Below are positions 56,466 through 63,927 of a stretch of 64,000 nucleotides of DNA, one piece after another. Made by a program: the position numbers and the translations under genes. The notes under the pieces were generated by a model. That model was given only the letters and a program-made list of their open reading frames with translations. It ran no database searches and was not told the DNA's origin. The DNA comes from Armatimonadota bacterium (GTDB lineage Bacteria; Armatimonadota; UBA5829; DSUL01). Position 1 is the first letter of the stretch. Every line of letters begins with the position of its first letter. Where the stretch lies: contig AP024674.1 in the NCBI GenBank assembly GCA_025998755.1, forward strand, positions 620,001 to 684,000. Direction: 5' to 3'.

Positions 56466-56540
56466 ATGCAATGCTTTAGACGGGCAGGAATCGGCGTCAC
56501 TGTAGTACGCGCGGCCCGGGAGGGCCGCGGCGTAGGCTAG
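56466..56540 (+). CDS. Possible ilvB leader peptide (24 codons)
   Basis: ATG at 56466, stop TAG at 56538-56540. The peptide includes I-G-V-T-V-V-R-A-A-R, a modest Ile/Val cluster resembling actinobacterial ilv leader peptides in style. The stop is 10 bases before the long hairpin. The nearest AGGAG is 16 bases upstream, too far for a strong site, so translation is uncertain. Confidence 0.3.
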   Translation: MQCFRRAGIGVTVVRAAREGRGVG

Positions 56541-56678
56541 CCGCCCGGCTGGCAGGCATCGTCCTGCGCCGGAGCGGCGAGTCGATGTCCTGCCTTACGA
56601 GAGTTGCAAAAGTCCGACAGCAATCCCTTTCCCTGAAGCCGCAGCAAGGCGCGAAGGGTGCGCAGTAAGAAAGTCAGA

Positions 56679-56711
56679 CCTCTCGTCCTCAGGCAGGACG
56701 AGGGGTTTTTT
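56679..56711 (+). terminator. Attenuator terminator upstream of ilvB
   Basis: An 11-bp stem (56679-56689 with 56695-56705, one G-T pair, CAGGC loop) is followed by six T. It stands 73 bases before the ilvB start and would stop transcription unless the antiterminator forms. Confidence 0.9.
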
Positions 56712-56783
56712 GCATGCGGTTGTGCGCCGCATGGCATTTTCCAGTTATGCTGTAAATCAGTCAGAAAGGGTCCGGAGAAGACA

Positions 56784-60253: not shown

Positions 60254-60284
60254 GGGGCCGGGGCTCTGATGCTCCGGCCCCTTT
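60254..60284 (+). terminator. Intrinsic terminator after ilvC
   Basis: An 8-bp GGGGCCGG/CCGGCCCC stem (60254-60261 with 60274-60281), extended by three inner pairs, is followed by TTT. It separates ilvBNC from the leuA leader. Confidence 0.75.
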
Positions 60285-60326: not shown

Positions 60327-60355
60327 TTGCACATCCGGCTAACATGTGGTACAAG
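60327..60355 (+). promoter_or_regulatory. Candidate promoter of the leuA leader
   Basis: TTGCAC (60327-60332), a 17-base spacer and TACAAG (60350-60355) with a TGG extended -10. The start would be near 60362. Confidence 0.4.
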
Positions 60356-60371
60356 AACAGTAACTGCGATG

Positions 60372-60488
60372 ATGCGCCAGAGGAATGTGACTGTTCACAC
60401 GCTTTCAATGGAGTGCGGCTTCGGGCCGGACTCAACTTCCGCACGCATTCTGGCTGGCATCATTATCCTCATCCTCGCGCTTATCTAG
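60372..60488 (+). CDS. leuA leader peptide rich in Ile and Leu
   Basis: A 38-codon frame opens with ATG at 60372 (or ATG at 60408, 26 codons) and stops at TAG 60486-60488. Its last 13 residues are I-L-A-G-I-I-I-L-I-L-A-L-I: six Ile and four Leu immediately before the stop. This is the hallmark of a branched-chain amino acid leader peptide that senses charged tRNA through ribosome stalling. No strong ribosome site is visible. From the candidate promoter the 60372 start would be nearly leaderless. The actual start codon is uncertain; the codon run is directly visible. Confidence 0.75.
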   Translation: MRQRNVTVHTLSMECGFGPDSTSARILAGIIILILALI

Positions 60489-60578
60489 CCTGCGGTCCCT
60501 TCGTCACGCTGGGGTCGCGGGCTGGCCGAATGGCCACGGACTGAGCAGGCCGGCGGTCCCGGCGGGGTCTGCTCTTTT
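60489..60578 (+). promoter_or_regulatory. leuA attenuator: antiterminator and terminator
   Basis: CCTGCGGTCC (60489-60498), right after the leader stop, pairs with 60538-60549 (GGAC and GCAGG, 9 bp), forming an antiterminator. The alternative is a terminator: GAGCAG (60543-60548) with CTGCTC (60569-60574), extended by GCCGG/CCGGC (60549-60553 with 60559-60563), then TTTT (60575-60578). The two share 60543-60549. A ribosome at the stop codon would cover 60489-60498 and favour termination. A ribosome stalled in the Ile/Leu run would leave it free and allow read-through to leuA. This, the peptide and the promoter account for the 60226-60697 gap. Confidence 0.75.
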
Positions 60579-60697
60579 ATCTTCCACCTGAAATGGCCGC
60601 AAAGGGAGTCCACGTGTACGGCGGCGGGCAGCCGGGGCCTATCAGGACTTCCTGAGGATGATTGAAGACCGGAATTCTGGAGACGCGAGGACTAACA

Positions 60698-62251
60698 ATG
60701 CAGGACAACGGCAATCGGGTCATCATTTTCGATACCACGTTGAGGGACGGCGAGCAGTCCCCAGGCGCAAGCATGAACATCGAGGAGAAGCTGGAGGCTG
60801 CGCGCCAGCTCGCCCGACTGAACGTGGATGTCATTGAGGCGGGGTTTCCCATCGCCAGCGAAGGGGATTTCGAAGCGGTGCGGCAGGTTGCCCGCGAGAT
60901 TCGCGGCGGACCGGCCATCGCGGGTCTGGCAAGAGCAGTGGACGCTGACATAGACCGGGCGGCCGAGGCGCTGAAAGAGGCGGAACGTCCCCGCATTCAC
61001 ACGTTCATCGCCACTTCTGATGTTCATTTGCAGCACAAACTGCGCATGACGCGGGAGCAGGTGCTGGAGCGCGCTGTGGAGGCTGTCCGGCGCGCGCGAA
61101 ACTACTGCGACGACGTTGAGTTCTCCCCGGAGGACGCCGCCCGATCAGACATAGACTTCCTGTGCAGGGTGGTGGAGGCGGTTATTGACGCGGGTGCGGG
61201 CACGGTAAATATCCCCGATACCGTCGGATACTCCACTCCGGCGGAATTCGGAGCCATGATCCGCACTTTGAAGGAGCGGGTTCCGAACATTGATCGCGCG
61301 GTCATCAGCGTTCACTGCCACAACGATCTGGGTCTGGCTGTGGCGAACTCCTTGTCCGCGCTGCAGAACGGCGCCCGGCAGGTGGAGTGTACTATCAACG
61401 GTATCGGCGAGCGCGCAGGAAACGCCGCGCTGGAGGAGATCGTGATGGCGTTGGAGACCCGGAAGGATGTGTTCGGGCTCACGACGGGCATCAATACGCG
61501 CGAGATCCTGCGCACCAGTCGGTTGATTTCCGAACTGACGGGCATCGTGGTGCAGCCGAACAAGGCGGTGGTGGGCGCCAACGCTTTCGCGCACGAGGCG
61601 GGCATCCACCAGCACGGCATCCTGATGAACCGTGAGACCTACGAGATCATGTCCCCGGAGTCTGTGGGGATGCGCGAGTCGAAGCTGGTGCTGGGCAAGC
61701 ATTCGGGGCGGCACGCATTCGCACAGCGTCTGAAGCAGATGGGTTACGAGCTCTCAAAGGAGGAGCTGGACCGCTCCTTTGCCCGCTTCAAGGAGCTGGC
61801 GGACAAGAAGAAAGAGATCTTCGATGAGGATCTGGAGGCCATCGTCTCGGACGAGATCCACACCATCCCGGAGACATACCGGGTGGAGTATCTCAACGTG
61901 ATGAGCAGCCTGGACGGCATCCCGACAGCCACCATCCGCCTGCGGAGGGGCGAGGAGGTGCGCCAGCACGCCGGGATCGGGGTCGGATGTGTGGATGCCG
62001 TCTACAAGACCATAGACGCAATGATCGACGAGCAGCACAATCTGGCGGACTATGTAGTTCGGGCTGTAACGGGTGGCACGGACGCCATCGCGGACGTCAT
62101 GGTGAAGGTCTCGGACGGGACCAATATCTACACCGGACGGGCTGCGAGCCTGGACATCGTTCAGTCGAGCGCGCGCGCCTATATCCAGGCTATCAACAAG
62201 CTGGTATACCATCAGAGCAAGCGGAAAGGCGGCCAGCTCGCGACACCCTGA
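60698..62251 (+). CDS. leuA: 2-isopropylmalate synthase
   Basis: The protein has 517 residues. The catalytic start is [17 protein letters not shown]; metal His are in [26 protein letters not shown] and the C-terminal regulatory domain (about 390-510) for leucine feedback are present. The ATG at 60698 has GAGG 7 bases upstream. It is the first committed step of leucine synthesis and lies behind the attenuator above. Confidence 0.96.
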
Positions 62252-62286: not shown

Positions 62287-63927
62287 ATGAATAGATCAGA
62301 CTCTGAAACGCGTTATGTGGAGATATTCGATACCACACTGAGGGATGGGTCCCAGGCGGAGGGGATCTCTTTCTCGGTGGAAGATAAACTGCGGATCGCG
62401 CAAAAGCTCGACACGCTGGGGGTGGCTTATATCGAGGGTGGTTGGCCGGTCTCCAACGATAAAGACCGGGAGTTCTTCCGCCGGGCGCGCGAGATGCAGT
62501 GGCACAATGCCCTGATCACGGCCTTCGGCAGCACCCGCCGAGGGGGGATCTCCTGCGAGGAGGACGCCAACCTCCGGGCGCTTGTCGAGAGCGGGGCCCC
62601 GGCTGTGGCCATCTTCGGAAAGAGCTGGGATCTGCACGTCACGGAAGCCCTGCGCGTGCCCCTGGAAGAGAACCTGCGGATGATCGAGGAGTCCGTCGCC
62701 TATCTGGTGAGGGCTGGGCAGCAGGTCATCTACGACGCGGAGCACTTCTTCGACGGCTACAAGGCGAACCCGGAGTATGCGCTTCAGACCCTGGAAGCGG
62801 CAAAACGGGGAGGAGCGCAGATCCTGGTGCTGTGCGACACGAATGGCGGATCTCTTCCCACGGAGGTCGCCAGGATCGTGGGGGTGGTGCTGGAGCGGCT
62901 GCAGCATCCTGTGGGAATCCACGCCCATAACGACTCCGGATGTGGAGTGGCTAACTCAATCGCCGCGGTGGAGGCCGGGGCGTCTCAGGTGCACGGGACC
63001 ATCAACGGGTATGGTGAGCGCTGCGGCAATGCGAACCTGTGCTCGGTCATACCGACACTGGAGCTCAAAATGGGGATCCAGTGCCTGCCGGACGGAAGTC
63101 TGCAGCACCTGACCAATGTTTCTCGCTTCGTTGACGAGATCGCCAACGTCGTCCCGGATGACCGCCAGCCGTATGTGGGCAAGTCTGCCTTCGCGCATAA
63201 GGGAGGCATTCACGTGGATGCCATCCTCAAGCACGAGCGCACATACGAGCACATCCGGCCGGAGTTGGTTGGCAACGAGCGGCGGGTGCTGATCAGCGAA
63301 CTGTCCGGAGCCTCCAATGTGGTGGCCAAGGCTCAGAAGCACGGTCTGGATCTGACCAAAGGTTCCCCGGAGGCGCGCGCGGTGCTGCATGACATAGTGC
63401 GGCTGGAGAACGAGGGGTACTCATTCGAAAGCGCGGAAGGTTCGTTTGAGCTGCTTCTGAAGAAGCATACCGGTGGTTACCGCAAGCTGTTCGACCTGTT
63501 GAGCTTCCGGGTGATCATTGAGAAGCGCCATCCAGATGAGGAGCCGATCACCGAAGCCACCCTGAAGATCCGGGTAGGGGACGAGGTGCGCCATACGGTG
63601 GGCGAGGGGGATGGACCGGTGCACGCGCTGGACACCGCCTTGCGCAAAGCGCTGCTGGTCTTCTACCCGGACCTGGATGAGATCAAACTGACCGACTTCA
63701 AGGTGCGCGTCATCAACAGTGGGGCTGGCACGGCGGCCAAGGTGCGGACGGTCATAGACTCTCAGGACACGGAAGGCCGGATGTGGAGCACTGTGGGGGT
63801 CTCGACCAACCTGATCGAGGCCAGCTGGCAGGCTCTGGTGGACAGTGTGGAATACGGGTTGCTGCGCCAGCTGGACGAGGGCACTGCGGAGCAGCGCTCC
63901 GTGTCCGTGGCGCGCTCACTTCAATAG
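62287..63927 (+). CDS. cimA: (R)-citramalate synthase
   Basis: The 546-residue protein is a LeuA-family enzyme of the CimA type: [33 protein letters not shown], the HAHNDSGCGVANS metal site and GYGERCGNANL. CimA condenses acetyl-CoA and pyruvate, giving isoleucine precursors without threonine deaminase. The C-terminal third is the regulatory domain, probably isoleucine-sensing. The start is 35 bases after leuA. Confidence 0.93.
   Translation: MNRSDSETRYVEIFDTTLRDGSQAEGISFSVEDKLRIAQKLDTLGVAYIEGGWPVSNDKDREFFRRAREMQWHNALITAFGSTRRGGISCEEDANLRALVESGAPAVAIFGKSWDLHVTEALRVPLEENLRMIEESVAYLVRAGQQVIYDAEHFFDGYKANPEYALQTLEAAKRGGAQILVLCDTNGGSLPTEVARIVGVVLERLQHPVGIHAHNDSGCGVANSIAAVEAGASQVHGTINGYGERCGNANLCSVIPTLELKMGIQCLPDGSLQHLTNVSRFVDEIANVVPDDRQPYVGKSAFAHKGGIHVDAILKHERTYEHIRPELVGNERRVLISELSGASNVVAKAQKHGLDLTKGSPEARAVLHDIVRLENEGYSFESAEGSFELLLKKHTGGYRKLFDLLSFRVIIEKRHPDEEPITEATLKIRVGDEVRHTVGEGDGPVHALDTALRKALLVFYPDLDEIKLTDFKVRVINSGAGTAAKVRTVIDSQDTEGRMWSTVGVSTNLIEASWQALVDSVEYGLLRQLDEGTAEQRSVSVARSLQ

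Follow-up and report, generated by a model that had tools for sequence, protein, structure and literature searches.

A probable ribosome-mediated transcription attenuator upstream of leuA in a member of the Armatimonadota

The region upstream of leuA in the Armatimonadota genome studied here raises the question of whether a short reading frame ending in isoleucine and leucine codons serves as the sensor of a transcription attenuator or has another role. The stretch analyzed (the window) comprises 64 kb, namely positions 620001-684000 of a one-contig 3.29-Mb genome (G000), and contains an ilv/leu cluster in the order ilvB, ilvN, ilvC, a 472-base gap, leuA, and cimA. The ilvB product, ilvN, ilvC, leuA, and cimA were named by NCBIfam models above their cut-offs (Table 1). 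The nearest named LeuA matches, at 62%-68%, belong to Nitrospinae, Armatimonadota, and other groups. We consider the leuA region to be a ribosome-mediated transcription attenuator, with a probability of roughly 0.83. The basis for this reading is the frame, the codon run, the structures, conservation, and a switch in an equilibrium model; from these we infer transcription start, translation of the leader, ribosome stalling, termination, and co-transcription of cimA.

Table 1. Features of the leuA leader region and the genes that follow it (window coordinates).
Feature	Position	Strand	Evidence
Intrinsic-terminator-like hairpin 3' of ilvC, preceding the candidate leuA leader promoter	60254-60281	+	Consensus scan, 11 pairs + TTTCT
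Candidate sigma-70-type promoter, TTGCAC-17-TACAAG	60327-60355	+	Hexamers and spacing compared with relatives
Leader peptide frame, MMRQRNVTVHTLSMECGFGPDSTSARILAGIIILILALI then stop, 34-40 codons	60369-60488	+	Open reading frame reading; intact in G001
Last control codons, CTT ATC (Leu-Ile)	60480-60485	+	Identical in 4/4 family genomes
Segment 1, 5' arm of hairpin 1:2, GCCTGCGGTCCC	60488-60499	+	Folding; compensatory changes in G002/G003
Predicted antiterminator 2:3, GCTGGGGTCGC (60508-60518) with GCGGTCCCGGC (60553-60563)	60508-60563	+	Duplex energy, masking model
Segment 2, 3' arm of hairpin 1:2, GGGGTCGCGGGC	60511-60522	+	100% of pairs kept among three genera
Small hairpin GGCC-GAAT-GGCC, then ACGG	60524-60535	+	Pairs invariant in three genera
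Intrinsic terminator 3:4 and U-tract	60543-60578	+	Consensus scan, folding
leuA (2-isopropylmalate synthase)	60698-62251	+	NCBIfam NF002086 / TIGR00973 above cut-off
cimA (citramalate synthase), directly 3' of leuA, ~35 bases apart	62287-63927	+	TIGR00977 above cut-off

The leader frame, with in-frame starts at ATG 60369, ATG 60372, or GTG 60387, ends at TAG 60486-60488, and 10 of its last 13 residues (ILAGIIILILALI) are isoleucine or leucine. When stop codons were counted in all six frames of the 64-kb window, keeping the 13 codons before the stop open, at least 10 Ile/Leu in these 13 codons preceded just one of 1,774 stop codons, that of the leuA leader, and none of the 49,425 found in 20 mononucleotide shuffles. 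The run that an earlier note on this DNA had pointed out is therefore the sole one of its kind in the window. At the sequence level, the leuA leader thus carries a frame with a codon run for the operon's own amino acid. Toward its end, the run uses leucine codons (CTC, CTC, and CTT) that avoid CTG, the dominant leucine codon of the cluster genes (CTG 68%, CTC 11%, CTT 9%).

The 17-base spacing and similar hexamers of the candidate promoter recur at the leuA leaders of two relatives, the congener G001 (TTGCGC-17-TAGAAG) and G003 (TTGCGA-17-TACAAG), the latter a genome in which leuA does not adjoin ilvC. The site in the window fails a strict consensus scan for promoters, and the leader of a third relative, G002, lies ~25 bases after ilvC without such a promoter. 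The start codon and the promoter of the leader are uncertain, and the 5' end of the leader RNA would lie near 60362.

Downstream of the run, the stop codon of the leader overlaps the first base of segment 1, and GCCGGCGGTCCC in the 5' half of the terminator (segment 3) repeats segment 1 with 11/12 bases matching, which allows segment 2 to pair with either. The terminator itself, which the earlier note had placed correctly, consists of the arms GAGCAGGCC (60543-60551) and GGTCTGCTC (60566-60574) followed by TTTT (60575-60578), and it lies 120 bases upstream of leuA; in both the window and G001, an intrinsic terminator separates the leader from the structural gene. With dinucleotide shuffles of the region downstream of the stop as pairing controls, the 2:3 duplex reached -26.7 kcal/mol versus a shuffle mean of -19.4, and 23 of 2,000 shuffles were at least as good. 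The small GGCC hairpin remains folded within the predicted antiterminator. Ribosome-mediated attenuation, as first proposed for this locus, appears right in kind, but the folding suggests that the antiterminator is probably formed by segment 2, the 3' arm of the hairpin, rather than by the segment directly after the stop.

Equilibrium folding of the leader of the window genus, with all RNA 5' of the leading edge of the ribosome masked, yielded an exclusive antiterminator that depends on ribosome position. The terminator had a probability of ~0.9 while the first free base was at most +9 from CTT (segment 1 free), the antiterminator reached 0.65-0.98 with the first free base at +12 to +27 (segment 1 masked), and the terminator was regained once segment 2 was masked as well. 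The leading edge of a ribosome lies ~12-14 bases beyond the A-site codon. According to the model, a stall at CTT, a stall at ATC, or a ribosome still on TAG would all give the ON state; a ribosome on TAG masks segment 1 too, and the OFF state would consequently need fast release.

In the mechanism we propose, the leader peptide would be translated while the polymerase makes the hairpins. With ample Leu-tRNA and Ile-tRNA, the ribosome would reach TAG and leave, hairpins 1:2 and 3:4 would form, and transcription would stop at ~60578. If charged Leu- or Ile-tRNA were scarce, the ribosome would pause on CTT-ATC and cover segment 1, leaving segment 2 to pair with the 5' half of the terminator (2:3); no terminator would then form, and leuA, probably together with cimA, would be transcribed. 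The leader would control cimA as well only on condition that both genes share a transcript. The Ile/Leu codons farther 5' may slow the ribosome and raise sensitivity.

Conservation was assessed among four genomes of the family, namely the source genome, its congener G001, and members of two other genera, G002 and G003. In G001, the 142 bases from 60438 to 60579, which span the run through the U-tract, show no difference, while identity is 78% in the preceding intergenic sequence, 91% in the 3' part, and 92% in leuA; at rates of 91%-92% identity, 142 identical bases have a probability of 10^-5 to 10^-6. The leader frame of G001 differs at three amino acids and contains no indel. Upstream of leuA, G002 and G003 retain a core of ~70 bases, comprising CTYGCSCTTATC, the 12-bp hairpin, and GGCCnnnnGGCCACGG. 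All pairs of hairpin 1:2 are standard in the three genera, both partners having been replaced in 3 of the 12 pairs, and pairing falls to 29%-49% when the partner is slid by one to three columns as a control. Covariation of this hairpin was matched by 30 of 500 shuffles, a modest statistic owing to the small number of genomes (four, two of them nearly identical in the leader), and the GGCC hairpin, with invariant pairs in three genera, provides no covariation evidence. Pairings 2:3 and 3:4 are invariant in the congener and unalignable in G002 and G003.

The output side of the leader differs among genera. The frame and run are intact in the congener, but where the window has the leader TAG, G002 reads TTG and G003 reads CAG, which leaves their frames open through the hairpins (VTHQ...RLLGLVGLILALILPAAHCHGLQAGHLATAPF in G002 and MDYR...LSLELTLALIQPAR... 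in G003). The run consists mostly of leucine in these two genera, the long isoleucine run being specific to the window genus. A joint response to isoleucine and leucine, also part of the original proposal, is consistent with the CTT-ATC pair shared across the family; its isoleucine part would rest, as far as the sequence goes, on one conserved codon and the genus-specific run. Family sequences no longer align 3' of GGCCACGG; the terminator of G002 is weak, and G003 is without a U-tract. A 2:3 switch was sought in G002 and G003 and not found (775 of 1,000 and 139 of 1,000 shuffles, respectively, were as good), and the 2:3 switch and terminator were seen only in the window genus. The stretch between the leader and leuA of G003 (locus L084) contains a pair of strong hairpins that exclude each other, GCCTCTAGACC...GGTCTGGAGGC and CTAGTTCCC...GGGAACTAG; no U-tract accompanies them, and the former overlaps the leader stop codon.

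A second candidate attenuator was observed at 56466-56716, upstream of ilvB. Its upstream open reading frame (uORF) at 56466-56540 encodes MQCFRRAGIGVTVVRAAREGRGVG, with counterparts MLSGRLIGISIISGGALLLSLVVVG in G002 and MQSGRLLNLRVIVAGAAFAGRVAG in G003, each followed by a stop. These uORFs have 24-25 codons and are enriched in Val/Ile/Leu, and two helices, CTAGCCGC..GCGGCGAG and GGCAGG..CCTGCC, interleave, the first of them containing the stop codon. A CGAGAG element in this leader is complementary to CTCTCG of the terminator, a TTTTTT terminator that lies downstream of the uORF and is conserved in all four family genomes. No match to Rfam was found for the ilvB leader.

Beyond the family, we detected no comparable leuA leader among 291 genomes of the phylum. 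A covariance model of the core (R1) gave strong matches in this set only at the four family loci, all upstream of leuA; other matches in pattern and R1 searches of these genomes were at chance level, those in G208 and G221 lying in unrelated sequence. Loci of the class outside the family yielded no Ile/Leu leader upstream of leuA, with the AT-rich L105 giving chance-level matches only. Applied to other phyla, the Ile/Leu scan upstream of leuA recovered, in Syntrophaceae/Deltaproteobacteria, Leu-rich leaders accompanied by clear terminators, demonstrating that it is able to see classical leuA attenuators. Four of these loci (L024, L032, L041, and L076) encode Leu-rich leader peptides before leuA, for example LLSLLGLALLCLL, and share an attenuator-like arrangement, TTTTTAGG...CCTAAAGGCCATGGGC...GGCCTTTTT. 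At L091, L093, L094, L095, L097, L098, L100, and L102, which belong to members of the class, reading by eye indicated a gene encoding a protein of ~150 residues that contains Cys, directly 5' of leuA in place of ilvC. No known RNA family was found in the window at Rfam gathering scores, permissive Rfam scans of the leuA leader, the ilvB leader, and the G002 leaders returned chance-level matches only, and the T-box covariance model, which detected its positive controls, had no match in the window or in the four family genomes.

Enterobacterial leuL and ilvL leaders combine runs of Leu/Ile codons with exclusive 1:2, 2:3, and 3:4 hairpins and a U-tailed terminator. The leuA leader described here likewise has a codon run, exclusive hairpins, and a U-tailed terminator, but it is without sequence relation to any Rfam leader, its last control codons lie just 5' of segment 1 with the stop at the first base of that segment, and its stop position and terminator differ between genera. 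The ilv-leu operon of Staphylococcus aureus, as portrayed in PMC5794164, has a Leu-rich attenuator peptide and likewise represents branched-chain attenuation outside Proteobacteria and Actinobacteria; it belongs to another phylum, and the likeness is one of description. The actinobacterial LEU element also places a Leu-rich frame before leuA, but it is reported to form a pseudoknot that pairs the Leu codons with the Shine-Dalgarno box of leuA (PMC1262725), whereas an intrinsic terminator is found here. Pairing of the run with the leuA start region in the window amounted to -21.5 kcal/mol in scattered, gapped pairs, a value obtained without a control. Similarly, the ilvB-II and ilvB-OMG motifs have a branched-chain-rich uORF before a branched-chain gene, but they precede ilvB (PMC10272879), and the leuA and ilvB leaders described here match no Rfam model. 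According to a paper from 2010, the leader peptides known up to that time were confined to Proteobacteria and Actinobacteria, groups that the paper extended by Firmicutes (PMC2965389). A search of one paper library for leader peptides and attenuation in Armatimonadota found no paper.

Other explanations of the locus account for parts of this evidence. An RNA that binds a protein or a small molecule, in the manner of a riboswitch and comparable to the LEU element, in which the Leu/Ile codons matter little, would agree with the better conservation of the hairpin and GGCC-hairpin core relative to the terminator or stop, with the missing U-tract in G003, and with the report that Leu-codon mutants of the LEU element did not fit classical attenuation (PMC1262725). 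We regard it as unlikely, given that no Rfam match and no T-box in the four family genomes were found, that conservation falls on codons and stems and not on a loop pocket, and that masking in the model produces a clean switch whose codons stand exactly at the conserved distance. The frame might instead encode a small functional membrane peptide, its hairpins merely terminating or processing the RNA, since the C-terminus ILAGIIILILALI is hydrophobic and resembles a transmembrane helix, and the G002 peptide is also fairly hydrophobic. Yet peptide sequence and length vary strongly between genera, where the stop is lost, while CTYGCSCTTATC and the hairpin are kept; conservation is at the RNA level and extends beyond the stop codon to the U-tract; and the leader stands upstream of leuA in all four family genomes, making a membrane peptide very unlikely. 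Decay of the leader, with the run a relic and leuA constitutive or expressed from another promoter, would fit the loss of the terminator and 2:3 switch outside the genus, but it is even harder to reconcile with 142 identical bases in two congeneric species whose leuA genes are 92% identical.

Within the attenuator reading, the antiterminator could in principle be built from the segment directly after the stop and the 5' arm of the terminator, as the earlier note had it. The GCCTGC/GCAGGC complementarity on which that version drew does exist, but at -19.0 kcal/mol it was equaled or exceeded by 701 of 2,000 shuffles, the segment is the 5' arm of the 12-bp hairpin kept by compensatory changes, and a stalled ribosome would cover it; we have rejected this segment as the antiterminator and hold that version to be barely credible. 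A further possibility, which we put forward tentatively and think rather doubtful, is a lineage-specific attenuator with CTT-ATC, hairpin 1:2, and the GGCC hairpin as the sensor and a genus-dependent output, a separate leader controlling ilvB. The window genus might, with similarly slender odds, respond by terminating transcription, and genera in which the stop codon and U-tract are missing might act through translation or Rho.

The ribosome-mediated transcription attenuator that we favor is a known kind of device (a leu/ilv attenuator), newly found upstream of leuA in a poorly studied lineage. The leuA attenuator and the ilvB leader, along with the failure to detect a T-box in the four family genomes, suggest that branched-chain amino acids are sensed via translating ribosomes in this family. 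The leuA leader adds a short gene that would go unnoticed in routine annotation, and similar devices could turn up in poorly annotated phyla upstream of leuA and ilvB.
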